A stretch of 49,477 bases of DNA, taken from assembly GCA_017479425.1 (NCBI GenBank), contig JAFVCD010000041.1, forward strand, positions 1 through 49,477, written 5' to 3'. Shown piece after piece: positions 18,123 to 30,036 of this stretch; the stretch's first letter is position 1, and every line of letters begins with the position of its first letter. The notes under the pieces were generated by a model. It did not search any database and had not been told where the DNA came from. It was given only the letters and a program-made list of their open reading frames with translations. The translations under genes and the position numbers were made by a program. The stretch is from Oscillospiraceae bacterium. Lineage in GTDB: Bacteria > Bacillota > Clostridia > Oscillospirales > Oscillospiraceae.

Positions 18123-19334
18123 ATGATGAAAATCAACGATAATTTCCTGAAGCTTCCCGGCGGATACCTCTTTCCGGAGATTGGCCGCCGTGTAAGAGCA
18201 TACACTGATCCGAAAATGCCGCTCATCCGCCTCGGAATCGGCGACGTTACTCAGCCTCTCGCGCCCGCGGTAGTCGAGGCGATGAAGAAGGCGAGCGCCG
18301 AGATGGGCACAAAGGAGGGCTTCCGCGGCTACTGCGAGGAGAAGAACGGCGCCTACGACTGGCTCCGCTTCGCCATCGCAAATGATTACAAGTCCCGCGG
18401 AGTTGACATCGCCGACGACGAGATCTTCGTCTCCGACGGCGCAAAATCCGACTGCGGCAACATCGGTGACATTTTCTCCGTTGACAATGTGGTCGCCGTC
18501 TGCGATCCGGTCTATCCCGTCTACGTCGACACGAACGCAATGGCGGGCAGAGCCGGAAACTATGTCGACGGCAAGTGGGATAACCTCGTCTATCTCCCCT
18601 GCACTGCTGAAAATGACTTTTTCCCCGCTCTCCCCGAGAGAGTTCCCGATATAATCTACATCTGTTCGCCGAACAATCCCACCGGCACCGCGGCGACGAG
18701 GGCTCAGCTCAAGGTTTGGGTCGATTATGCGAACGCCCACGGCTCCGTCATTCTCTACGACTCCGCCTACGAGGCATACATTCAGGAGCCCGACAAGCCT
18801 CACTCCATCTTTGAGGTCGAGGGCGCCAAAACCTGCGCCATCGAGTTCCGCAGCTTTTCAAAGACCGCCGGCTTCACCGGCAACCGCTGCGCCTACACCG
18901 TAATCCCGAAGGCGCTCGAGCGCGGGGGCGCGAGCCTCAACGCGCTCTGGAACCGCAGAATGGGCACAAAGTTCAACGGCGTTGCCTACGTCATTCAGCG
19001 CGCCGCCGAGGCGTGCTTTACCCCCGAGGGCAAGGCGCAGATACAGTCCACCATCGACTTCTACCACGAAAACGCCCGCATCATCTCCGACGGGCTCAAG
19101 GACGCCGGTCTCACCGTTTATGGCGGCGTGAACGCGCCGTATATCTGGTTCCGCACGCCTGAGGGCTACGGCAGCTGGGAGTTTTTCGACAAGCTCCTCT
19201 ATGACGCCTGCGTTGTCACCACGCCGGGCGCGGGCTTCGGTCCCAGCGGCGAGGGATATATCCGCCTCACCGCCTTCGGCGGCCGCGACGCCACAGTAGA
19301 GGCAGTCGAGCGCATCAGAAAATTGCTGAAATAA
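18123..19334 (+). CDS. dapL: LL-diaminopimelate aminotransferase
   Basis: Converts tetrahydrodipicolinate directly to LL-diaminopimelate, the one-step aminotransferase route to meso-DAP and lysine. 403 aa; class I/II PLP fold with the N-terminal [20 protein letters not shown] characteristic of Dap[12 protein letters not shown], and the PLP-lysine motif [23 protein letters not shown] lies just upstream of a double ATG (18123/18126); either could be used. It has its own promoter and is separated from the aro operon by the attenuator region. The route matters for peptidoglycan and spore dipicolinate supply. Confidence 0.96.
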
Positions 19335-19346
19335 GGATTTTTCCTC

Positions 19347-19375
19347 TTTACTTTTAGCAAATAAAGTGTTAAACT
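19347..19375 (+). promoter_or_regulatory. Predicted promoter of the aro operon
   Basis: TTTACT (19347-19352), 17-base spacer, TAAACT (19370-19375). Start near 19382 would place the leader peptide ATG about 22 bases downstream. Boxes are imperfect; read-through from dapL is also possible. Confidence 0.5.
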
Positions 19376-19403
19376 ACGGATATATTTTTCAAGGAGACCG
19401 ATT

Positions 19404-19487
19404 ATGAAGAGTTTTGCCAATCGTGAATACGGATATTATTATTTCAGCTTTACCTTTTTTGGTAAGGTCAATCCGCGTTTGGCATAA
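19404..19487 (+). CDS. Tyr/Phe-rich leader peptide of the aro operon attenuator
   Basis: A 27-residue ORF with a good AAGGAG ribosome binding site 7 bases upstream. Its middle reads YGYYYFSFTFF: 4 Tyr and 5 Phe within residues 9-19 (plus Phe4), far beyond chance, and it sits before a Phe/Tyr biosynthetic operon. It ends GKVNPRLA and stops at TAA 19485-19487. The last codons (19473-19483) form the 5' arm of the antiterminator. By analogy with the pheL, trpL and hisL leaders, ribosome stalling at uncharged tRNA-Tyr or tRNA-Phe should expose that arm and allow transcription into aroF. The peptide itself probably has no function beyond being translated. Confidence 0.88.
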   Translation: MKSFANREYGYYYFSFTFFGKVNPRLA

Positions 19488-19554
19488 TTTGGGTATATCG
19501 GCATATTTTTGAGCCAGAAAACCCCATCGCCGAACGCGGTGGGGTTACTTTTTT
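19473..19554 (+). promoter_or_regulatory. Antiterminator/terminator switch of the aro operon
   Basis: Two mutually exclusive stems. Terminator: 19520-19530 pairs with 19536-19546 (AACCCCATCGC with GCGGTGGGGTT, one G:U), loop CGAAC, then ACTTTTTT. Antiterminator: CCGCGTTTGGC (19473-19483) pairs over 11 bp with GCCGAACGCGG (19529-19539, one G:U), taking the terminator loop and part of both arms. A ribosome stalled at Tyr/Phe codons (19428-19460) leaves 19473-19483 free. A ribosome at the stop codon (19485) covers it, so the terminator forms. The aroF ribosome binding site (GGAGG at 19557-19561) follows directly. Confidence 0.87.
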
Positions 19555-19569
19555 GCGGAGGAAACGAAT

Positions 19570-20589
19570 ATGATAGTCATTCTTAAGAAAAATCCCGACC
19601 AGAACCAGCTCGACAATCTGAAGCGCTGGCTTCGCTCTAAGAACATCGACATCCACGAGTCCACCGGCGTCGAGAGCACGATTCTCGGGCTTGTCGGCGA
19701 TACCACGACCATCGACATAAATCTTCTGAACGCGCTCGACATAGTTGAGGACGTTAAGCGCATTCAGGAGCCGTACAAGAAGTGCAACCGCAAGTTCCAC
19801 CCCGAGGACACCGTTATCAAGGTCGGCAATACGCAGATTGGCGGAGGCAATCTCACGCTTATGGCGGGTCCCTGCGCCGTTGAGAGCGAGGAGCAGATCC
19901 TCTCGGCGGCAAGAGCCGTAAAGGCAGCTGGTGCGACGATGCTTCGCGGCGGCGCGTTCAAGCCCCGCACCTCGCCCTACTCCTTTCAGGGTCTGCGCGA
20001 GGAGGGCATCCGCCTTCTTGAGCTTGCGAAAAAGGAAACCGGCCTCCCCATTGTGACTGAAATCATGGACGCGAGCCAGCTCGACTGCTTCGAGAACGTC
20101 GACGTCATTCAGGTCGGTGCGAGAAATATGCAGAACTTTGAGCTTCTCAAGGTTCTCGGCAAGACGGACAAGCCCATACTTCTGAAGCGCGGACTTGCGA
20201 ACTCCTATCAGGAGTTCCTTATGAGCGCGGAGTACATCATGGCGGGCGGCAACGAGAAGGTCATCCTCTGCGAGCGCGGCATCCGCACCTTTGAGACCTA
20301 CACACGCAATACGCTCGACATCGCGCTTGTGCCCTCGATGAAGCAGCTCAGTCACCTGCCCATCATCATCGACCCGAGCCACGCCGCGGGCAAATACGCG
20401 CTCGTTCCCTCTCTCTCCTGCGCCGCTGTCGCCGCGGGCGCAGACGGACTTATAATCGAGGTTCACTGTGACCCCGAGCACGCGCTCTCCGACGGCCCGC
20501 AGAGCCTCAAGCCCGACGTATTCGGCCGCCTTGCGAAAAAGCTCTACGCCATCCATGACGTTATGGGCTCGATGGAGGAAGTGCTATGA
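19570..20589 (+). CDS. aroF: 3-Deoxy-7-phosphoheptulonate (DAHP) synthase, type I-beta
   Basis: First step of the shikimate pathway: phosphoenolpyruvate plus erythrose-4-phosphate. 339 aa. Residues 1-70 are a ferredoxin-like regulatory domain (MIVILKKNPDQNQLDNLKRW) as found in I-beta enzymes that bind Tyr/Phe; the barrel follows with LMAGPCAVESEEQI, LRGGAFKPRTSPYSFQG, IQVGARNMQNFELL, LLKRGLANSYQEFL and IIDPSHAAGKYALV. So feedback inhibition at the protein level could add to attenuation. GCGGAGGAAACGAAT precedes the ATG. The stop overlaps tyrA (ATGA). Confidence 0.96.
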   Translation: MIVILKKNPDQNQLDNLKRWLRSKNIDIHESTGVESTILGLVGDTTTIDINLLNALDIVEDVKRIQEPYKKCNRKFHPEDTVIKVGNTQIGGGNLTLMAGPCAVESEEQILSAARAVKAAGATMLRGGAFKPRTSPYSFQGLREEGIRLLELAKKETGLPIVTEIMDASQLDCFENVDVIQVGARNMQNFELLKVLGKTDKPILLKRGLANSYQEFLMSAEYIMAGGNEKVILCERGIRTFETYTRNTLDIALVPSMKQLSHLPIIIDPSHAAGKYALVPSLSCAAVAAGADGLIIEVHCDPEHALSDGPQSLKPDVFGRLAKKLYAIHDVMGSMEEVL

Positions 20590-21422
20590 CTGTCGGCGTA
20601 GTGGGTCTCGGACTTATCGGCGGCTCCTTCGCCCTCGCCGCGGCAAAGAAAACTCAGCACCGCGTTCTCGGCTTCAACCGCAACAAGGACACGCTTGAGG
20701 AGGCGCTCCTCTGCGGCGCTATCGAGGCGGAGCTCAACGAATACAATCTCCCCGAGTGCAACGTAGTTATCGTCGCCCTGCCTCCGCAGGCGACTGTCGC
20801 GTGGGTCGATAATTACGGAAAATATCTCAAAAGCTCCTGCGTGCTCGTCGACGCCGTCGGCGTGAAGCGCGTTATCGTCGAAAAACTCAGCGCCGTCGCG
20901 GACAAGTACGGCTTTACCTACATCGGCGGGCATCCGATGGCAGGAAAGGAGGTCGCAGGCTTTCCGAACAGCGACGAAAATCTCTACCGCGGCGCCTCAA
21001 TGATTCTCACCCCGCGTACCGGAACGGATATCGCCATTGTGGACGATTTAAGGATTTTCTTTCTCTCCCTCGGCTTCGGCAGAGTCACCATCGCCACCCC
21101 GGAGGAGCACGACAAGGTCATCGCCTACACCTCTCAGCTCGCACATATCGCCTCGAGCGCATATATAAAGAGCCCCTCCGCGCAGGTGCATTCCGGCTTC
21201 TCGGCCGGCTCGTTCCGCGACCTTACGAGGGTCGCAAGGCTCGATGAAAACCTCTGGACAGAGCTTTTCCGCGACAACAGGGACTATCTTACAAGCGAAT
21301 TAAAGGAGCTCATCGCGCACCTGAACGAATATCTCGTCGCGCTTGAGAGCGAAAACTGGGACGAAATGCGCGCGCTCTTAAAGGACGGGCGCGAGAAAAA
21401 GGAGTCGAGCGGCAGAGCATGA
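20586..21422 (+). CDS. tyrA: Prephenate dehydrogenase
   Basis: NAD-dependent oxidative decarboxylation of prephenate to 4-hydroxyphenylpyruvate on the tyrosine branch. 278 aa, with the N-terminal dinucleotide motif VGVVGLGLIGGSFALAAAK, GGHPMAGKE (conserved active-site His), and the helical C-terminal dimer domain (YTSQLAHIASSAYI, FRDLTRVARLDENLW). No ACT or chorismate mutase domain is fused; those are in pheA. Overlaps aroF and aroB by 4 bases each. Confidence 0.95.
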   Translation: MTVGVVGLGLIGGSFALAAAKKTQHRVLGFNRNKDTLEEALLCGAIEAELNEYNLPECNVVIVALPPQATVAWVDNYGKYLKSSCVLVDAVGVKRVIVEKLSAVADKYGFTYIGGHPMAGKEVAGFPNSDENLYRGASMILTPRTGTDIAIVDDLRIFFLSLGFGRVTIATPEEHDKVIAYTSQLAHIASSAYIKSPSAQVHSGFSAGSFRDLTRVARLDENLWTELFRDNRDYLTSELKELIAHLNEYLVALESENWDEMRALLKDGREKKESSGRA

Positions 21423-22474
21423 AAACCGTCAGAGTAAACGTCCGCGAGGGCTACGATGTAAATATCGGAAGCGGCATTCTCCCCGAGTTCGGCGCGATGC
21501 TCGCCGAGGTGGCAAAGCCTCCGAAAAAGGTCTGCATCGTTTCCGATTCCAATGTTGCTCCATTGTACGGTGAAACGGTGCGAAAAAGCCTTGAAAGTGC
21601 GGGCTTTTCGCCCTTTACTATAGTCTTTCCCGCGGGCGAGCAGAGTAAAAACATGACAACTCTCGCCTCGATTTTAGAGGAGATGGCCGACGCTTCCCTC
21701 ACCCGCTCCGACCTCGTCGTCGCCCTCGGCGGCGGCGTGACCGGCGATATGGCGGGGTTTGCGGCGTCAATATATCTGCGAGGGGTCAAATTTGCCCAAA
21801 TACCGACTACGCTGCTTGCGGCGGTGGATTCCTCCGTCGGCGGCAAGACGGCAGTCGACCTTAATCACGGCAAGAACCTCGCCGGAGTGTTCGCGCAGCC
21901 CATTTTAGTCTGCTGCGATACCAACGCCTTTAAGACCCTCACGCCGGAGATTTTTGCAGACGGCGCCGCTGAGAGCATAAAGTACGGAATTCTCGACGAC
22001 AAGCCGCTTTTTGAGGCTTTTTCCGGCGGAACCGTTCAGAATATAGAAGATATCGTCGCCTCCTGCGTTCAGCACAAGGCGGACTACGTCGAGCGCGACG
22101 AGTTTGACCGCGGCGATAGGAAGTTTCTCAATCTCGGCCACACGATGGCTCACGCCATCGAAAAGCTCTCCGGCTACACCTTCCCGCACGGTCACGCTGT
22201 CGCTGTCGGCACCGTGATGATTGCCCGCGCGGGAGAGAAAATGGGCGTCACCGAAAAGGGCACGACCGATGAGATAATAAGGATTTTCATGGAAAACAAT
22301 CTACCCGTCGCCTCGCCCTATGACGCCGAGAGCCTTTTTACCGCCGCCTGCGGCGACAAGAAGCGCGAGGGCGGCACGATAACCGTCATAATGATAGAAA
22401 AAATCGGCAAATGCTTCCTCAAGACCGTTCCGGTCGAGGAGCTCCGCAACATCGCAATTTTGGGTAAAGAATAA
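21419..22474 (+). CDS. aroB: 3-Dehydroquinate synthase
   Basis: Cyclises DAHP to 3-dehydroquinate using NAD and Zn/Co. 351 aa, with the N-terminal IVSDSNVAPLYGE, FPAGEQSKNM, VALGGGVTGDMAGFAASIYLRG, PTTLLAAVDSSVGGKTAVD and the metal-binding NLGHTMAHAIEK and FPHGHAVAVG blocks. It overlaps tyrA by 4 bases and shares one base with the aroA start (TAATG). The pathway order on the chromosome does not follow the reaction order but all seven steps are present in this operon. Confidence 0.96.
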   Translation: MKTVRVNVREGYDVNIGSGILPEFGAMLAEVAKPPKKVCIVSDSNVAPLYGETVRKSLESAGFSPFTIVFPAGEQSKNMTTLASILEEMADASLTRSDLVVALGGGVTGDMAGFAASIYLRGVKFAQIPTTLLAAVDSSVGGKTAVDLNHGKNLAGVFAQPILVCCDTNAFKTLTPEIFADGAAESIKYGILDDKPLFEAFSGGTVQNIEDIVASCVQHKADYVERDEFDRGDRKFLNLGHTMAHAIEKLSGYTFPHGHAVAVGTVMIARAGEKMGVTEKGTTDEIIRIFMENNLPVASPYDAESLFTAACGDKKREGGTITVIMIEKIGKCFLKTVPVEELRNIAILGKE

Positions 22475-23637
22475 TGGATTACAAGGTCTATCCCGCGCAC
22501 CTTCGCGGCTCGATCGCCGCGATACCGTCCAAGTCCGATGTTCACCGGCTGCTTATCTGCGCCGCGCTGTCGGACGCAGAGACGGAGATCTTCTGTCCCG
22601 CCGTCAGTGAGGATATTCTCGCAACGGTGCGGTGCTTAGCCTCGCTCGGTGCCGAAATTCAATATAAAAGCGGCGTTTTTTCGGTTTTGCCGATAAAAAA
22701 GGTACCGGAAAATCCCACGCTCGACTGCGGTGAGTCCGGCTCTACGCTGCGCTTTATGCTGCCCGTCGCGGCGGCGATAAGTGATAGTACGACTTTTGTC
22801 GGGCGCGGCAGACTTCCTGCGCGTCCTATAGGAGAGCTAAAATCCGCAATGGAATCGCACGGCGCGCGTTTTTCCGCCGAAAGGCTGCCCTTCACGGTTT
22901 CCGGCAGGATGTCCGGTGGATTATTCACGCTGCCCGGCAACGTCTCGAGCCAGTACATTACGGGACTTCTCCTTGCGCTTCCGCTGCTCGGCGGCGGCGA
23001 GGTGCGGCTCACAACGCCTCTTCAGAGCGCCTCCTACGTTGATATGACAAGGCGCGCGATGGCGAAATTCGGCGTGCGCGTCGATAATCTCGCGGCTTCC
23101 GGCGCCTATCGCTCGCCCGGGCGCGTGATTGCCGAGGGCGACTGGTCGAACGCGGCGTTTTTCATCATCGCCGGAGCTGAGGTCACGGGGCTTGACCCCG
23201 CCTCGCCGCAGGGTGACCGGGTGATTTACGATAATATGGCGAAGCTTGACCGCGGTGAGACTGTCGACCTCACCGACACGCCCGATATGCTCCCCGCGCT
23301 CGCAATCTACGCCGCGATGCACTGCGGCGGCGAGTTTTCCGGCATTGAGCGGCTTCGCATCAAGGAATCCGACCGCATTCTGACGGTCAAAAGCATGATA
23401 AACTCTCTCGGCGGCGCGGCGCGCGACCTCGGCGAGCGCTTTTCTGTCGAGTCTCAGCCGCTAACGGGCGGTATTTGCGAGTGCGCGAACGACCACCGCA
23501 TAGCGATGGCGGCGGCAGTCGGCGCTTCCTTCGGCACTGAGCCGAGCGTAATCTGCGGCGGCGAGTGCGTAAACAAGTCCTATCCCGGCTTTTGGGATGA
23601 TTTCAGGCTCCTGGGAGGTAGATTCGATGTCCTCTGA
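22474..23637 (+). CDS. aroA: 5-Enolpyruvylshikimate-3-phosphate synthase
   Basis: Transfers the enolpyruvyl group of PEP to shikimate-3-phosphate. 387 aa. Signature blocks: PSKSDVHRLLICAALS, DCGESGSTLRFMLPVAA, GRGRLPARPIGEL, SSQYITGLLLALPLL, RLRIKESDRI and NDHRIAMAAAVGA. It is shorter than the usual ~430 residues and has Ser-Asp-Val-His-Arg after the catalytic Lys region instead of the common SKSxSxR, but the active-site residues look intact. The 3' end overlaps aroC by 11 bases. Confidence 0.94.
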   Translation: MDYKVYPAHLRGSIAAIPSKSDVHRLLICAALSDAETEIFCPAVSEDILATVRCLASLGAEIQYKSGVFSVLPIKKVPENPTLDCGESGSTLRFMLPVAAAISDSTTFVGRGRLPARPIGELKSAMESHGARFSAERLPFTVSGRMSGGLFTLPGNVSSQYITGLLLALPLLGGGEVRLTTPLQSASYVDMTRRAMAKFGVRVDNLAASGAYRSPGRVIAEGDWSNAAFFIIAGAEVTGLDPASPQGDRVIYDNMAKLDRGETVDLTDTPDMLPALAIYAAMHCGGEFSGIERLRIKESDRILTVKSMINSLGGAARDLGERFSVESQPLTGGICECANDHRIAMAAAVGASFGTEPSVICGGECVNKSYPGFWDDFRLLGGRFDVL

Positions 23638-24715
23638 ATTTGGAAAAGCGTTGAAGGTGCAGATTTTCGGCGAGAGCCACGGCAAGGCCATCGGCTGCGT
23701 TATCGACGGCATTCCCGCCGGCGAAGCGATAGATTCTGACGCGCTCTATGCCTTTATGGCGCGCCGCAGACCCGGCGGAAACTCTCTCGGAACAGCGCGA
23801 AACGAGGCTGACAGACCGGTTTTTCTCTCCGGCGTTCGCAACGGCGTGACCGACGGCTTCCCCATCTGCGCGATAATTGAAAATTCCGACACGAAAAGCG
23901 GCGATTACGCGGGCTTTCTCCGCACTCCCCGCCCATCTCACGCCGATTACACCGCGCTCCTGCGCTACGGAAAAAGTGTCGATATGCGCGGAAGCGGTCA
24001 CTTTTCCGGCAGGCTCACAGCGCCGCTCTGCATCGCAGGCGGCATAGCAAAGGAGCTTCTCAGCCGGCGCGGGATATACGTCGGCGCGCACCTTAAAAGC
24101 GTGGGCTGTGCCGAGGACGTGAATTTCCCGCTTCACCCCACAAAGGAGCTGTTCGAGTCCGTCGCCGCAAAGCCTCTCGCAGTGATTGACGAGGGCGCCG
24201 CGGACGAGATGCGCGCCGAGATCGAAAGCGCGCGCGCCGAGGGCGATTCCGTCGGCGGGAGCATCGAGTGCGCTATAACCGGACTTCCCGGCGGGGTCGG
24301 AAGCCCGATGTTTGACGGCGTTGAAAGCCGCCTCGCCGCAGTTCTCTTCGGCGTTCCGGCGGTGAAGGGGGTCGAGTTCGGCGCTGGGTTCAACGCTTCG
24401 CGTATGCGCGGGAGCGAACACAACGACCCGTATATAATCTCTGGCGGCAGGGTCACAGCTGAAAAGAACGACGCCGGTGGCATAGTTGGCGGCATAACAA
24501 ACGGAATGCCGATAGTTTTCCGCGCTGCGATAAAACCCACGCCCTCGATAGCAAAGGCGCAGCGGACAGTTGACCTCGAAGCTATGACCGATGCTGAAAT
24601 AGAAATCAAAGGCCGCCACGATCCGTGCATAGCAGTTCGCGCGGTGCCTGTTATCGAGGCCGCGGCGGCTATTGCAATTTTAGATTTACTCCTGGAGGAA
24701 AAGAAATGGAACTGA
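23627..24715 (+). CDS. aroC: Chorismate synthase
   Basis: FMN-dependent removal of phosphate from EPSP to give chorismate. 362 aa, with the N-terminal FGESHGKAIGCVIDGIPAG, RRRPGGNSLGTARNE, the VDMRGSGHFSGRLTAP block and the C-terminal GRHDPCIAVRAVPVIEA. The ATG at 23627 follows GGGAGG by 8 bases inside the end of aroA; the longer reading from 23597 has no support. Overlaps pheA by 10 bases. Confidence 0.95.
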   Translation: MSSEFGKALKVQIFGESHGKAIGCVIDGIPAGEAIDSDALYAFMARRRPGGNSLGTARNEADRPVFLSGVRNGVTDGFPICAIIENSDTKSGDYAGFLRTPRPSHADYTALLRYGKSVDMRGSGHFSGRLTAPLCIAGGIAKELLSRRGIYVGAHLKSVGCAEDVNFPLHPTKELFESVAAKPLAVIDEGAADEMRAEIESARAEGDSVGGSIECAITGLPGGVGSPMFDGVESRLAAVLFGVPAVKGVEFGAGFNASRMRGSEHNDPYIISGGRVTAEKNDAGGIVGGITNGMPIVFRAAIKPTPSIAKAQRTVDLEAMTDAEIEIKGRHDPCIAVRAVPVIEAAAAIAILDLLLEEKKWN

Positions 24716-25845
24716 ACGAGCTTAGAAACGAGATAAACAAGGTCGATGAGGAGCTTTTAGAGGCGTTTCTCAAGCGCATGAGGCTCTGCTGGGACATCGG
24801 CGAGGTCAAGAAAACCGAGGGTCTGCCCGTTCTCAACCGCGCCCGCGAGCGCGAGATCCTCGACAAGGTGCAGAAGGCATCCGGTGACCTCGCGCCCTAC
24901 TCGCACAGACTGTACACAACGCTCTTTGAGCTGAGCCGCGCTTATCAGTCGAGCGGACTTGACAAGGATACTAAGGTCAAGGCGCTCATTGAAAAGAGCC
25001 TCCAGAGCAGTGAAACGCTCTTTCCGCAGTCCGGCGCTATCGCCGTTCAGGGTGTCGAGGGCGCTTACTCTCAGATGGCGGCTGACCGCATCTTTCCGCG
25101 CGGGAGCCTCGTCTTCTTCAAAAACTTCGAGGGCGTGTTCGACGCCGTTGAGATGGGCTTCTGCGATTTCGGCGTGCTTCCGATCGAGAACAGCTCTAAC
25201 GGCTCAGTACGCGCGGTGTACGATCTTCTGCAGACGAAAAAGGTATCCATCGTGCGCTCCACTCGCCTCTGCATAAGCCACGAGCTTCTCGCGAAGCCCG
25301 GCGCAAAGCTCTCCGACATCACCGAGATACACTCCCACGAGCAGGCGCTCGGTCAGTGCAGTGAGTTCCTTAAAAAGCTCGGCGACAAGGTGAAAATCGT
25401 TGCCGATCCGAACACCGCGATGGCGGCTCAGTTTGTCGCGGAGTCTCCGCGAAACGACATTGCGTGCATAAGCTCCTCCGACTGCGCGAAGCTCTACGGA
25501 CTTAAGTCGCTCGATGTCAACATCCGCAACAGCGACAACAACTACACCCGTTTCATCGTCATCTCCCGAGAGCCGAAGGTCTATCCCGGCGCGAACAAGA
25601 TAAGCCTCGTTCTCGCCCTCGACCACAAGCCCGGCGCGCTCTACGACGTGCTGAGCAAGTTCGCCGCGCTCGAGGTAAACCTCCTCAAGCTTGAGAGCTG
25701 TCCGATGGTGGGTCACGATTTTGAGTTCCTATTCTTCTTTGAGATTGAAGCCTCCGCCGCCGACCCGAAGATCATCGGAATGCTCTCAGACCTCGAAACG
25801 AGCTGTCCCTCCTTCACCTACCTCGGCGCGTATCAGGAGGTATAA
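24706..25845 (+). CDS. pheA: Bifunctional chorismate mutase / prephenate dehydratase
   Basis: Converts chorismate to prephenate and then to phenylpyruvate. 379 aa: an AroQ-type chorismate mutase at residues 1-90 (LRNEINKVDEELLEAFLKRM, PVLNRAREREIL), prephenate dehydratase from about 110 (VQGVEGAYSQMAADRIFP, FGVLPIENSSNGSV, the NNYTRFIVISRE block), and a C-terminal ACT domain (SLVLALDHKPGALYDVLSKF, LESCPMVG) that usually binds Phe for feedback inhibition. The start at 24706 follows CTGGAGGAAAAGAA and overlaps aroC. It feeds both pheA and tyrA branches with prephenate. Confidence 0.96.
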   Translation: MELNELRNEINKVDEELLEAFLKRMRLCWDIGEVKKTEGLPVLNRAREREILDKVQKASGDLAPYSHRLYTTLFELSRAYQSSGLDKDTKVKALIEKSLQSSETLFPQSGAIAVQGVEGAYSQMAADRIFPRGSLVFFKNFEGVFDAVEMGFCDFGVLPIENSSNGSVRAVYDLLQTKKVSIVRSTRLCISHELLAKPGAKLSDITEIHSHEQALGQCSEFLKKLGDKVKIVADPNTAMAAQFVAESPRNDIACISSSDCAKLYGLKSLDVNIRNSDNNYTRFIVISREPKVYPGANKISLVLALDHKPGALYDVLSKFAALEVNLLKLESCPMVGHDFEFLFFFEIEASAADPKIIGMLSDLETSCPSFTYLGAYQEV

Positions 25846-27078
25846 ATGTACGCTCTCATCGGCAGAAAGCTTGGGCACAGCTTCTCAAAGCCAATTCACA
25901 ATGCGCTCGGAAACGCCGACTACTCGCTCCTCGAGCTTGAGCCGGAGGAATTGCACCGATTTATGCTCTCGCGCGAGTTTGACGGGCTGAACGTGACTAT
26001 CCCCTACAAGCTCGACGTTATCCCCTACCTTGACGAGATCAGCGACGGTGCGCGCGATATAGGCTCTGTTAATACGATAGTCAACCGCGGCGGCAGGCTT
26101 TACGGCTACAACACGGATATCGACGGATTTATTTACACTGTCAAGAGCGCGGGGATCTCGATTCGCGGGAAAAAGGTGCTCGTTCTCGGCTCCGGCGGCA
26201 CCTCGCGTACCGCCCGCGCCGCGGCAAAACAGCTCGGCGCTCGCGAAATTATTATGATCTCCCGCTCCGGCGAGAATAACTATGAAAACACCTCCCGCCA
26301 CTTTGACGCCGACGTCATCGTGAACACCACTCCCGTCGGAATGTACCCGAACTGCCCCGGCGCGGCGCTCTCGCTTGACGGGTTTACACGGCTATCCGGC
26401 GTTGTGGACGTCGTCTACAACCCCGCCCGCACCGGTATTCTCCTCGAAGCCGAGACGCGCGGAATAAAGTGCGCCGGAGGGCTCAGGATGCTCGTCGGTC
26501 AGGCGAAGAGAACCGAGGAGCTCTTCTTTGACCGCGCGATAGCCGACTCGGAGATCGAGCGCATCGCATCGGAAATGCGCCGCGAGACGGAAAATATAGT
26601 CCTTATCGGTATGCCCGCCGTCGGCAAAAGCACGGTCGGGCGCTATCTTTCCGCGCTGAGCGGCCGTGAGGTGCTCGATACCGACAAGCGGATAGTTGAA
26701 AAAGCGGGTATGACCATACCCGAAATCTTTGAAAGGTACGGCGAAGCGCGCTTCCGCGAAATCGAAACTGAGGTGCTCGCAGAGGTCGGCCGCCTCTCCG
26801 GCAAGATAATCACCTGCGGCGGCGGTGTCGTCACGCAGGCGCGAAATTACCCGCTCCTGCACCAGAACGGAGTTATAATCGAGCTCATGCGCCCGGTGGA
26901 CTCGCTCAGCATGAAGGGCCGCCCGCTCTCGAAGAGTGCGGACGCTCTGCGCGAGATGTTCAGAACGCGCCGCCCGATGTACGATTCCTTCCGCGACGCC
27001 GTTTTCTACAACATGGTGTCGAGCGAGGAAACCGCAAAAAAGATATGGAGGTATTTTAATGAAAATCCTCGTAATTAA
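25846..27078 (+). CDS. aroE: Bifunctional shikimate dehydrogenase - shikimate kinase (AroE-AroK fusion)
   Basis: 410 aa with two enzymes in one chain. Residues 1-245 are AroE: LIGRKLGHSFSKPIHNAL, LNVTIPYKLDVIPYLD, the NTIVNRGGRLYGYNTD block, the NADP loop LGSGGTSRTARAA, and GGLRMLVGQAKR. Residues 252-410 are AroK: IVLIGMPAVGKSTVGRYLS (Walker A), DTDKRIVEKAG, FREIETEVL, TCGGGVV and GRPLSK. The two catalyse consecutive steps (dehydroshikimate to shikimate to shikimate-3-phosphate), so the fusion may channel shikimate. The frame is continuous with no stop; there is no separate aroK in the operon. It starts immediately after the pheA stop behind AGGAGG. Confidence 0.95.
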   Translation: MYALIGRKLGHSFSKPIHNALGNADYSLLELEPEELHRFMLSREFDGLNVTIPYKLDVIPYLDEISDGARDIGSVNTIVNRGGRLYGYNTDIDGFIYTVKSAGISIRGKKVLVLGSGGTSRTARAAAKQLGAREIIMISRSGENNYENTSRHFDADVIVNTTPVGMYPNCPGAALSLDGFTRLSGVVDVVYNPARTGILLEAETRGIKCAGGLRMLVGQAKRTEELFFDRAIADSEIERIASEMRRETENIVLIGMPAVGKSTVGRYLSALSGREVLDTDKRIVEKAGMTIPEIFERYGEARFREIETEVLAEVGRLSGKIITCGGGVVTQARNYPLLHQNGVIIELMRPVDSLSMKGRPLSKSADALREMFRTRRPMYDSFRDAVFYNMVSSEETAKKIWRYFNENPRN

Positions 27079-27490
27079 CGGCCCCAACCTCAATATGCTC
27101 GGCATCCGCGAGCCGGATATCTACGGAAGCGCGACCTACTCCGACCTCTGCTCTCTTATCTCAGATAACGCTGAACGACTCGGCGTTGAGGTGGAGTTTT
27201 TCCAATCTAACCACGAGGGAGCGCTCGTCGGCAAAATCCAGGAGTCGTATAAAAAGATAGACGGCATCGTGATAAACCCCGGCGCGTATACCCACACCTC
27301 CGTTGCCCTGCTTGACGCACTGAAAAGCGTCGGCATACCGACAGTCGAGGTGCATATCTCCGACCCGGATACGCGCGAGGAGTTCCGTAAAATCTCCTAC
27401 ATCCGTCACTACTGCCTCGCAACCGTCAAGGGCAAGGGTTTTCCCGGCTATATCGAGGCTATGGAAATTCTCATAAAGGCGGCTGAGTAA
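27059..27490 (+). CDS. aroQ: Type II 3-dehydroquinate dehydratase
   Basis: Dehydrates 3-dehydroquinate to 3-dehydroshikimate by the type II (trans) mechanism. 143 aa: INGPNLNMLGIREPDIYG with the catalytic Tyr/Arg loop, INPGAYTHTSVALLDAL, VEVHISDPDTREEFR and the C-terminal ATVKGKGFPGYIEAME. The ATG at 27059 follows GGAGG by 7 bases and lies 20 bases inside the end of aroE-aroK. It completes the set of shikimate enzymes. Confidence 0.96.
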   Translation: MKILVINGPNLNMLGIREPDIYGSATYSDLCSLISDNAERLGVEVEFFQSNHEGALVGKIQESYKKIDGIVINPGAYTHTSVALLDALKSVGIPTVEVHISDPDTREEFRKISYIRHYCLATVKGKGFPGYIEAMEILIKAAE

Positions 27491-27493
27491 CCC

Positions 27494-28345
27494 ATGCAAT
27501 CCTCCGCAAAAACGCGATACGTGCTCTCAGTCGTGCTCTTCGGCACGATCGGGCTGTGTCTGAGATTTGTAAAGCTTCCGAGCGAGATCGTAGTCATGTG
27601 CCGCGGGCTTATCGGCTCGGCATTCATTCTTATCTTTCGCCTCGTCACCGGCGCGAAGCCAGACGCCGCGGCCATACGCAAAAATCTCAGGTGGCTGCTG
27701 CTCAGCGGTGCGTGCCTCGGCTTTAACTGGATCTTCCTCTTCGCCGCGTATCTTACAACCACCGTCGCGGCGGCAAGCCTCGTAAACTACACCGCGCCAA
27801 TAATGCTCGTCGCCGTCGCTCCGATTCTCTACAAGGAGCGCCTTGGCGGCAAAAAGCTTCTCTGCATACTTGCCGCGCTCATAGGCGTTGTGCTCATAAG
27901 CGGGCTTATCGGCGGAGAGAGCGTGCGGCTCGACGGCATTTTCTACGCTTTTCTCGCGGCTCTCGGCTTTGCCGCCCTCGTTGTGTTCAACAAAAAGCTC
28001 GACGGCATTACGCCCTACGACCGCGCGATAACCCAGCTTTTCATCTCCGCGCTCGTCGTTCTCCCTTACGTTCTGTGGCGCAATCTCGGCTCTTCGATCG
28101 AGCTTGACCCTCTGAGCGTCGGAATTACGATAATGCTCGGAGTTTTGCAAACCGGTGTCGCGTATATTCTCTACTTCGGCTCGATAACCGAAATTCCTGT
28201 CACCACCTTCGCCGTTCTCGGCTACCTTGAGCCGGCGATAAACGTTCTCGCCTCCGCGCTCGTGCTGGGTGAGCCGATGGGTCTTGCAGGCTGGCTCGGA
28301 GCCGCGCTTATAATCGGCGCCGCGGTAGTAAGTGAAATAATCTGA
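27494..28345 (+). CDS. EamA/DMT-family transporter at the end of the aro operon
   Basis: 283 aa, ten hydrophobic segments in two EamA repeats (residues 5-135 and 150-283), with FNWIFLFAAYLTTT, SLVNYTAPIMLVAV, the FFVILG-like inner helices and VTTFAVLGYLEPAINVLASAL. The family exports amino acids and other metabolites. It starts 3 bases after aroQ and no terminator separates them, so it is probably co-controlled by the Phe/Tyr attenuator. An exporter for aromatic amino acids or a pathway intermediate is a reasonable inference, but a controller that switches on under Phe/Tyr shortage would fit import or intermediate handling better. Confidence 0.88.
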   Translation: MQSSAKTRYVLSVVLFGTIGLCLRFVKLPSEIVVMCRGLIGSAFILIFRLVTGAKPDAAAIRKNLRWLLLSGACLGFNWIFLFAAYLTTTVAAASLVNYTAPIMLVAVAPILYKERLGGKKLLCILAALIGVVLISGLIGGESVRLDGIFYAFLAALGFAALVVFNKKLDGITPYDRAITQLFISALVVLPYVLWRNLGSSIELDPLSVGITIMLGVLQTGVAYILYFGSITEIPVTTFAVLGYLEPAINVLASALVLGEPMGLAGWLGAALIIGAAVVSEII

Positions 28346-28869: not shown

Positions 28870-28915
28870 TTTGCTTTTTTGCCAATTTTTTGCATTGACA
28901 AACCGTTGGCAAGGC

Positions 28916-28944
28916 TTGAAGCAAGGAGCGCTTTACAGTATAGT
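28916..28944 (+). promoter_or_regulatory. Promoter of SLH-domain gene
   Basis: TTGAAG (28916-28921), 17-base spacer, TATAGT (28939-28944), 36 bases before the start codon. Confidence 0.65.
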
Positions 28945-28980
28945 GAATATGACAAGCTCACAGAAAAGAGGTTACGTATC

Positions 28981-30036
28981 ATGTCAAGATTTTGCAATAA
29001 ATGCGGCGCACCGCTCCGCGATGGCATACGCTTCTGTACAAAGTGCGGCGCACCGATCACCGAAGCGCCTCAACCTCAGCCTCAACCTCAGCCTCAACCT
29101 CAGCCGCAATATCAACCTCAGTCTCAGCCTCAGCCGCAATATCAGCCGCAGGCGGCGAAGAAGTCCGGCAAGGGCGCCGTGATCGGCATAGTCGCGGGAC
29201 TTGTCGTTATAGCGCTCGGAGTAACGGGCTGGCTCGGCTTCCGCGAGGGCGGTTTTTTGCGCGGCGGCGATACCGCAGCGGAAGAGGTAAAGGAGTCTGA
29301 TAGCCCGGTCAAGAAATCGGAAAGCTCCGTAAAGCAGCCGGATGAGCCCGTAAAACAGCCGGATGAGCCTGTAAAGCAGCCGGATGAGCCTGTAAAGCAG
29401 CCGGATGAGCCTGTAAAGCAGCCGGATGAGCCCGTAAAGCAGCCGGATGAGCCTGTAAAGCAGCCGGATGAGCCCGTAAAAACTGACGCCCCCGAGCCGG
29501 ATGCTCCCGAGCCAGTCAGTGAAACATACATTTTCGATGACGTTTCCGAGTCCGATTGGTACTATGAAGCCGTACAGTGGGCAGCGGGAGAGAGCATAGT
29601 TTCCGGCACGACCTTCAATCCCACTGGTGACTGCACAAGAGCGCAGGCGCTGACCTTCCTCTGGCGGGCAAAGGGAAAGCCGGAGCCGAATCTCAAGGTC
29701 AGCCCGTTTATCGACGCATCTGATGGCGATTACTTCTATGCTCCGGTGCTCTGGGCTTTTGAAAACGGTCTTATTTCCCTCTCAGGCGACGGAAAGTTCC
29801 ATCCCGACGACGCTGCGACCCGCGCACAGGCGGTGACCTTCCTCTATCGCGCCGAGGGCAGTCCGAAAACGCACGGCACCTCGCAGTTTTCCGACGTCAA
29901 GGACACCGATTGGTTCGCTCCGCAGGCTGTTTGGGCGCTCGAAAAAGGTCTTCTCTCCTCCGGCGGCGCCTTCTATCCCGACGGAAAAGCAAGCCGCGCG
30001 ATTTACGTTACGCTCCTTTACAGGCTATATAAATAA
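28981..30036 (+). CDS. Zinc-ribbon, single-pass membrane protein with three SLH domains
   Basis: 351 aa. Residues 1-25 are a zinc ribbon (CNKCGAPL...CTKCGAPI), then a PQPQ-rich linker (30-55), a transmembrane helix (63-84), an extracellular acidic linker with seven exact VKQPDEP repeats (about 117-165), and three SLH modules (FDDVSESDWYYEAVQWA; a second around FIDASDGDYFYAPVLWA; a third around FSDVKDTDWFAPQAVWA). SLH modules bind secondary cell-wall polymers, so the topology is ribbon inside, SLH outside, tethering membrane to wall. The ATG at 28981 follows AGAGG by 9 bases. The repeats suggest a length-variable spacer. Function beyond tethering is unknown. Confidence 0.9.
   Translation: MSRFCNKCGAPLRDGIRFCTKCGAPITEAPQPQPQPQPQPQPQYQPQSQPQPQYQPQAAKKSGKGAVIGIVAGLVVIALGVTGWLGFREGGFLRGGDTAAEEVKESDSPVKKSESSVKQPDEPVKQPDEPVKQPDEPVKQPDEPVKQPDEPVKQPDEPVKQPDEPVKTDAPEPDAPEPVSETYIFDDVSESDWYYEAVQWAAGESIVSGTTFNPTGDCTRAQALTFLWRAKGKPEPNLKVSPFIDASDGDYFYAPVLWAFENGLISLSGDGKFHPDDAATRAQAVTFLYRAEGSPKTHGTSQFSDVKDTDWFAPQAVWALEKGLLSSGGAFYPDGKASRAIYVTLLYRLYK
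29329..29475 (+). repeat. Seven tandem 21-bp repeats encoding VKQPDEP
   Basis: Seven contiguous copies of a 21-bp unit (GTAAAGCAGCCGGATGAGCC plus C/T) differing only at two third-codon positions. In frame within the SLH protein; copy number is likely to vary between strains. Confidence 0.95.

Follow-up and report, generated by a model that had tools for sequence, protein, structure and literature searches.

Leader region and downstream operon

The window, which is the whole stretch of 49,477 nucleotides analysed here (contig JAFVCD010000041.1 of the Oscillospiraceae bacterium assembly GCA_017479425.1), carries eight genes whose frames abut or overlap and which together encode all seven steps of the shikimate pathway plus the Tyr and Phe branches (tyrA and pheA). 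A sequence-only reading of this DNA had proposed a complete shikimate operon with tyrA and pheA 3' of a leader, and every one of these genes was found. The spacing of an EamA-type transporter gene that follows closely suggests that it, too, is a member of the operon. A seven-fold QPDEPVK repeat (29335-29481) was observed within an ORF (28879-30036) further 3' of the operon. The features considered here are as follows:

19347..19375, forward strand: putative sigma-70 promoter (TTTACT at 19347-19352, 17-nt spacer, TAAACT at 19370-19375)
19391..19399, forward strand: Shine-Dalgarno sequence AAGGAGACC of the leader ORF
19404..19487, forward strand: leader peptide ORF, 27 codons, 9 Tyr/Phe, read from the sequence and conserved in relatives
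19415..19425, forward strand: region 1, predicted to pair with region 2 (anti-antiterminator) when free of the ribosome
19447..19468, forward strand: P1 hairpin over the control codons (19447-19454 with 19461-19468), covarying in relatives
19473..19484, forward strand: region 2, 5' arm of the antiterminator, overlapping the last leader codons
19520..19554, forward strand: intrinsic terminator (3:4), stem 19520-19530/19536-19546, T-run 19549-19554
19529..19539, forward strand: region 3, 3' arm of the antiterminator, spanning the terminator 5' arm, loop, and first 3'-arm bases
19570..20589, forward strand: aroF (DAHP synthase), Pfam PF00793 and PF18152
20586..21422, forward strand: tyrA (prephenate dehydrogenase)
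21419..22474, forward strand: aroB (3-dehydroquinate synthase)
22474..23637, forward strand: aroA (EPSP synthase)
23627..24715, forward strand: aroC (chorismate synthase), start chosen at ATG 23627
24706..25845, forward strand: pheA (chorismate mutase-prephenate dehydratase), start chosen at ATG 24706
25846..27078, forward strand: aroE-aroK fusion (shikimate dehydrogenase-shikimate kinase)
27059..27490, forward strand: aroQ (type II dehydroquinase), start chosen at ATG 27059
27494..28345, forward strand: EamA-type transporter, close 3' of aroQ

The leader ORF extends from the ATG at 19404 to the TAA at 19485-19487 and encodes the peptide MKSFANREYGYYYFSFTFFGKVNPRLA, with five Phe and four Tyr among its 27 codons. 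As judged from the sequence, it has the properties of a leader ORF, being a short frame with a ribosome binding site that is kept as a frame, and its Tyr/Phe codons stand upstream of aromatic pathway genes, as they would in an attenuator that responds to the end products of the pathway. The sequence-only reading had placed both this ORF and the terminator hairpin with its T-run at exactly these positions. The TTTACT/TAAACT pair, located 3' of an aminotransferase gene (18123-19334), is putatively the promoter of the leader; inspection by eye revealed similar boxes in the close relatives L004-L006, and a consensus promoter scan made no call at 19347..19375. A comparison of four leader peptides with NCBIfam and Pfam yielded no match.

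The terminator consists of an 11-bp stem with a loop of 5, followed by AC and six T. A scan of 18500-20500 returned two terminator-like sites, both of which are this hairpin, and because shuffled sequences give 2.3 on average, the hairpin by itself is unremarkable in that interval. Its alternative pairing is more distinctive. CCGCGUUUGGC (19473-19483) can pair with GCCGAACGCGG (19529-19539) over 11 bp, including one G-U, and the duplex of 19471-19490 with 19520-19539 has a predicted energy of -21.5 kcal/mol, which none of 5000 mononucleotide shuffles equalled. Since region 3 falls within the terminator 5' arm, loop, and first 3'-arm bases, the terminator and the antiterminator are mutually exclusive; thus, an intrinsic terminator and an antiterminator that excludes it, as claimed in the sequence-only reading, are both present, with the overlap and the duplex energy bearing the claim out. 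The leader RNA as a whole is predicted to fold with a z-score of -3.9 (0/200 shuffles equally stable). Two further elements were absent from the sequence-only reading: the P1 hairpin over the Phe codons (-9.8 kcal/mol), and region 1, which pairs with region 2 around P1 in the minimum-energy fold. The 1:2 duplex in the window has a predicted energy of -17.2 kcal/mol, and 7/5000 shuffles were as good.

Distribution of the leader among relatives

Within the genus, aroF matches were obtained in 30 of 34 genomes (4 had no match), and once a locus cut at a contig end (L030) was left out, the leader was present in 29/29 aroF loci with upstream DNA. The exact P1 pattern occurred in 16/400 family genomes from 4/106 genera, including eight loci outside the genus, all of them before aroF. 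A covariance model of the leader core, R1, built from 34 sequences and ending at region 2, matched 40/250 family genomes and 23/106 genera at E 0.1 (own genome and genus included) and, at E 0.01, 39/295 genomes and 22/148 genera of the order (own included; 30 of 41 matches inspected). Inspection by eye led to the rejection of three family matches (L083, L085, and L087) as false, and these stand outside the 94-locus set described below. L230, a second model match from the own genome (E 0.0096), appeared by eye to be a chance match at a gene start. A broader model, R2, matched 19/291 class genomes and 13/249 phylum genomes at E 0.01 (own included in both). Of the matches other than the own one, 10/19 in the class and 5/12 in the phylum have aroF downstream; the remainder (9/19 and 7/12, respectively) are mostly chance-like, with leader-like ORFs seen by eye in two of them (L122 and L127). 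The best four R2 matches beyond the class (E 7.6e-10 to 4.4e-9) all precede aroF.

A pattern scan of named genomes gave 81 stretches. Among the 80 listed, 70 precede aroF, 2 tyrA, and 1 a PaaK-like gene, while 7 look like chance matches inside other genes; the tyrA and chance calls were made by eye, and some of the contigs are loci counted in the other searches. Carriers include Oscillibacter valericigenes Sjm18-20 (AP012044.1), Oscillibacter ruminantium GH1, and Dysosmobacter MAGs. A leader followed by a partial aroF at 56% identity was also observed on a contig labelled Synergistes (L194, JAEEYY010000013.1), which may reflect either transfer or misbinning.

An additional 60 aroF upstream regions from 60 family genera were collected, one of which was too short. 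The remaining 59 comprise 56 from genera without an R1 match and others from genera g3, g4, and g29. Here, an aromatic-rich leader was defined as an ORF 10-50 codons long that has a ribosome site and in which aromatic codons number at least 6 and make up at least 20%. Such ORFs were found in 47/59 regions, as compared to 1/59 reverse strands and 12/590 dinucleotide shuffles, and 12/59 had none. A leader with a terminator after it was found in 44/59 regions, 0/59 reverse strands, and 0/590 dinucleotide shuffles. R2 matched 17/59 of these regions at E <= 0.01, a threshold that applies to a small search space. Nine regions (L261, L264, L266, L268, L270, L276, L279, L284, and L287) form what looks like a second leader subfamily before aroF, with a core like SFxFGWARFMGAGFF that combines Phe/Tyr codons with one Trp codon; most members have a similar terminator around CATTGATTTCATCAATG. 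A separate observation concerns a block, TTGTGCAA..TGCCA, that directly precedes a promoter-like TTGTCT box in 19/29 genus upstream regions, about 240-255 nt upstream of aroF (for example in L029). It is possibly a regulator site, and none was seen upstream in the window.

Conservation and coevolution of the leader RNA

Structural conservation was evaluated across 94 loci from 39 genera, 84 of which are located before aroF. It should be noted that two of these loci (L079 and L082) are possibly not true members, the alignment of their P1 and region 2 being doubtful. In 90 distinct sequences, 98.1% of the P1 cells are paired and 7/9 pairs have changed on both sides; the covariation was matched on no measure by any of 500 shuffles, and structures slid along the alignment were 26-63% paired, figures that refer to loci chosen by a model containing P1 and that count one spurious row (a second match in L100). 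The codons within P1 follow the same constraint. The 5' arm encodes Phe by TTT in 91 cases and by TTC in 1, compared to 299 TTT and 123 TTC among the other leader Phe codons, and the flanking codons covary (ACC/GGT, ATC/GAT, ACT/AGT, GTC/GAC, ACG/CGT), even where the encoded amino acids are altered as a result. Judged by these substitutions, P1 is constrained at the level of RNA. Its relation to translation is also kept: the P1 loop is a multiple of three in 86/94 loci, and a start codon led by a Shine-Dalgarno sequence is in frame with P1 in 94/94, the leader frames having been picked by aromatic content and two of them (L034 and L086) set by hand.

The terminator scored at least 20 in 94/94 loci, as compared to 15/940 shuffles. 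For the antiterminator, with one locus per genus (39), cognate regions 2 and 3 paired with a mean of -15.75 kcal/mol and non-cognate regions with a mean of -10.48 kcal/mol, a difference reached in 0/20,000 permutations. This coevolution test is independent of R1, because the model ends at region 2. Compared with mononucleotide shuffles of region 2 from the same locus, the pairing was significant at p <= 0.01 in 80/94 loci, and the median p was <= 0.05 in 34/39 genera. The sequence-only reading had asked for leader ORFs and covarying arms in related Oscillospirales, holding that their loss would speak against it; the ORF is present in all 29 genus loci, the arms coevolve over 39 genera, and both are conserved through the 94 loci.

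The pairing of regions 1 and 2 is patchier. Across genera, it was equalled in 0/20,000 permutations with genome composition uncorrected, and individually it was significant in 13/39 genera and in 28/94 loci at p 0.05. The sequences therefore support 1:2 pairing in sum, and in some lineages only. Across loci, the position of the stop codon relative to the 3' end of P1 varies between 7 nt upstream and 45 nt downstream, and significant 1:2 pairing (p 0.05) was found in 3/21 loci with the stop before region 2 and in 25/70 others. On these counts, region 1 may have been lost wherever the stop codon precedes region 2, a point that stays a suggestion because one clade dominates.

Comparison with known regulatory RNAs

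Neither the window leader nor 28 other genus loci nor the 59 other aroF regions matched any Rfam 15 family at gathering score; at permissive E-values, only weak unrelated matches were obtained (best E 0.095). For the T-box (RF00230) specifically, no match at gathering score was obtained at aroF in the window, in 0/28 genus loci, or in 0/59 other regions. T-box matches were, nevertheless, obtained somewhere in 20/20 genomes searched (own included), with 15/20 over the cut-off. Because T-boxes occur in the same genomes, the leader peptides stand beside T-boxes and do not replace a missing system. The sole T-box-like match in the own genome (L291, contig C15, 69118-69361) scores 75.3 bits, short of the gathering score (93), and the ORF behind it reads like what we take to be a transporter binding protein, perhaps for Trp.

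In the trp, phe, and his attenuators of enterobacteria, a short ORF with codons for the end product, three alternative pairings (1:2, 2:3, and 3:4), and a terminator precede the first structural gene. The leaders reported here share the end-product-rich ORF, the 2:3 and 3:4 pairings, and the position of the terminator, with 1:2 pairing strong in the window and supported in sum across genera. They differ in sequence and lineage, in matching no Rfam family at gathering score (the pheA leader, Phe_leader RF01859, included), in combining Tyr and Phe codons, in having P1 as an additional covarying hairpin within the 1:2 loop, and in preceding a whole shikimate pathway. T-boxes, common in Firmicutes, likewise place terminators of amino acid genes under the control of tRNA charging. 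The proposed leader mechanism would share that logic, whereas the aroF leaders have no match to RF00230 at gathering score.

According to an earlier study, leader-peptide attenuation is usually seen as proteobacterial or actinobacterial, with T-boxes prevailing in Firmicutes (PMC2965389). The study describes leader peptides with His codons that precede hisS*/hisZ in Bacilli, and its authors state that they knew of no earlier leader-peptide system beyond Proteobacteria and Actinobacteria, the atypical ermC leader excluded (PMC2965389). Like the leaders described here, they are cases of leader-peptide attenuation from a group, Firmicutes, that usually relies on T-boxes; they differ in their His codons, their genes, and their lineage (PMC2965389). 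A closer precedent is uORFC-13-1, described in PMC8632094 as an upstream ORF with Phe codon(s) before aroF and directly 5' of an intrinsic terminator, for which attenuation was proposed. It also has another base-paired substructure and comprises 24 sequences, stated to be from Acholeplasma and unassigned environmental DNA only (PMC8632094). By description, which is the level at which the two were compared, the window leader is likewise an upstream ORF that contains Phe codons and precedes both a terminator and aroF. A mostly open-access literature search on leader attenuation in Clostridia or at aroF returned these two, one close precedent and one general. The view that the leader belongs to no standard family, taken in the sequence-only reading, consequently holds for Rfam and gives way, for the literature, to the published candidate before aroF in Acholeplasma. 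The mechanism is a textbook one, and the aroF leader family seems to be undescribed in the searched literature and in Rfam 15, with the exception of that related candidate.

Proposed mechanism of attenuation

It is highly probable (about 90%), from the sequence evidence assembled above, that the operon is controlled by a four-segment, ribosome-mediated transcription attenuator that senses charged Tyr- and Phe-tRNA. The codons, position, and pairings of the leader point to Tyr and Phe charging as what sets transcription of the shikimate-tyrA-pheA genes and, because the arms have changed together in many relatives, the operon is very probably switched on when Tyr or Phe is short. The ORF, pairings, conservation, and coevolution rest on sequence, and from them we infer the stalling, the order of folding, and the termination.

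RNA polymerase would start near 19382, and a ribosome would then begin the 27-codon leader. If Tyr-tRNA or Phe-tRNA were short, the ribosome would stall in the Tyr/Phe cluster at 19428-19460, thereby blocking region 1 from pairing and opening P1; region 3, on emerging, would be captured by region 2, no terminator would form, and the operon would be transcribed. With both tRNAs charged, the ribosome would reach the stop codon at 19485 and cover region 2, such that the 3:4 terminator would form and the transcript would end near 19554. In the absence of a ribosome, region 1 is predicted from the nascent-RNA fold to hold region 2, and termination would be expected. By analogy with the trp leader, P1 is most likely a polymerase pause hairpin that synchronises ribosome and polymerase, and no clear G-10/Y-1/G+1 pattern of a consensus pause site was seen in it by eye.

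This scheme was examined in a stall simulation of the 94 loci, in which only RNA 3' of the ribosome was folded, before region 4 is made. With footprints of 10, 12, and 15 nt, 73, 83, and 91 of the 94 loci, respectively, permitted the antiterminator with the ribosome on at least one aromatic codon and blocked it with the ribosome on the stop codon, a region 2 covered or passed by the ribosome being unavailable by construction. Permissive codons accounted for 734/855 aromatic codons and 1240/1907 others. Three loci (L079, L082, and L106) failed at every footprint tried, except that L106 passed at 10 nt. Ribosome-free nascent folds of the same loci contained 1:2 pairing (>=5 bp) in 60 and the antiterminator in 35. 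Direct masking of region 2 by the ribosome would be expected where the stop codon precedes or falls within region 2. Many lineages would need another route, because a ribosome at their stop codon sits past region 2; in these, termination might proceed via 1:2 pairing behind the ribosome, or through kinetics.

Three other explanations were weighed. The nascent peptide itself might sense free Tyr or Phe and arrest the ribosome in the manner of TnaC, with no sensing of tRNA charge. A peptide core, SFT-aromatics-FGKA, that is kept over many genera would fit such a role, yet its conserved residues follow the changes in RNA pairs, with Thr/Gly becoming Ile/Asp and Gly becoming Ser, Tyr and Phe replace each other freely, and the stop codon lies at varying distances, all of which makes peptide sensing very improbable. 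The preservation of P1 as a structured element and the T-box matches in 20/20 genomes could instead be taken to indicate a tRNA- or metabolite-binding RNA, be it a T-box or a riboswitch, that controls the terminator and to which translation is irrelevant. The coupling of P1 to the reading frame (loop length in 86/94 loci, start codon in 94/94) argues against it, as do the window leader, 28 genus loci, and 59 other aroF regions that match no Rfam family at gathering score, and we regard such an RNA as extremely improbable.

It is also conceivable that the ORF arose by chance or encodes a small protein and that the hairpin terminates the upstream aminotransferase gene. Intrinsic terminators are common between two same-strand genes, and the scan of 18500-20500 was not above shuffles. 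The hairpin 5' arm and loop, however, coevolve with region 2 over 39 genera, and aromatic-rich leaders before 47/59 other aroF genes far exceed those on reverse strands (1/59) and in shuffles (12/590), leaving this explanation very improbable. The attenuator thus remains the preferred reading, and sequence evidence identifies it as a genuine, conserved, and coevolving leader-peptide attenuator that combines a classical mechanism with a wide lineage and a family that is new as far as searched.

Such a family places leader peptides at the first aromatic-synthesis gene in many genera of one order, with scattered matches in the class and phylum. It provides a model-ready RNA family, unmatched by any Rfam model at gathering score, and a large set of natural examples of switch arms that coevolve. 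Because cultured strains such as O. valericigenes Sjm18-20 carry the leader, the attenuator is testable.

Genes other than aroF under the leader

The ten loci of the 94 that do not precede aroF are followed by tyrA (L058 and L108), aroB (L079, L080, L082, and L084, with L079 and L082 doubtful members), or genes for trpB2-like, AMP-binding, or PaaK-like proteins. Pfam was run on L108 (tyrA), L080 (aroB), L070 (PALP), L071 (AMP-binding), and the ligase and ACT protein of genome G204; reading of the sequences supplied the remaining gene assignments as well as the names trpB2 and PaaK. In L071, a Tyr-rich leader (MLNRFYAGYYYGFVYYYGTGFNKVG) precedes the gene for an AMP-binding, acyl-CoA-synthetase-like enzyme. 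The second leader copy of genome G204 (L077/L227) is followed by a PaaK-like ligase gene and then an ACT-domain gene, and similarly, in L209 (JAHAWY010000002.1), a Tyr/Phe leader precedes a phenylacetate-CoA-ligase-like gene and then an ACT-domain gene. The placement of a PaaK-like gene behind a Tyr/Phe leader suggests that aromatic amino acids are made there from aryl acids, in a form of salvage; a narrow literature search on PaaK-like aromatic amino acid synthesis from aryl acids found no paper. Gene function might in such cases be read from leader codons, this possible salvage being one example.

A broader interpretation is offered tentatively, at slightly less than even odds. The leaders may constitute an old, phylum-wide RNA family for aromatic amino acid genes, in which P1, over the control codons and separate from the 1:2 pairing, times the polymerase to the ribosome, and which has been moved to and retuned for other genes, with Trp codons before the trpB2-like gene and Tyr/Phe codons before the phenylacetate-CoA-ligase-like gene. 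If true, this would mark the PaaK-like enzyme as one of Phe/Tyr synthesis from aryl acids and not of their breakdown.

The leaders that precede the trpB2-like PALP enzyme gene (L070 and L073) contain Trp codons in addition to Phe/Tyr codons. Between the terminator and the gene, L070 also has another tiny ORF, which contains two Trp codons (MYLLTKRWRLWRHI).
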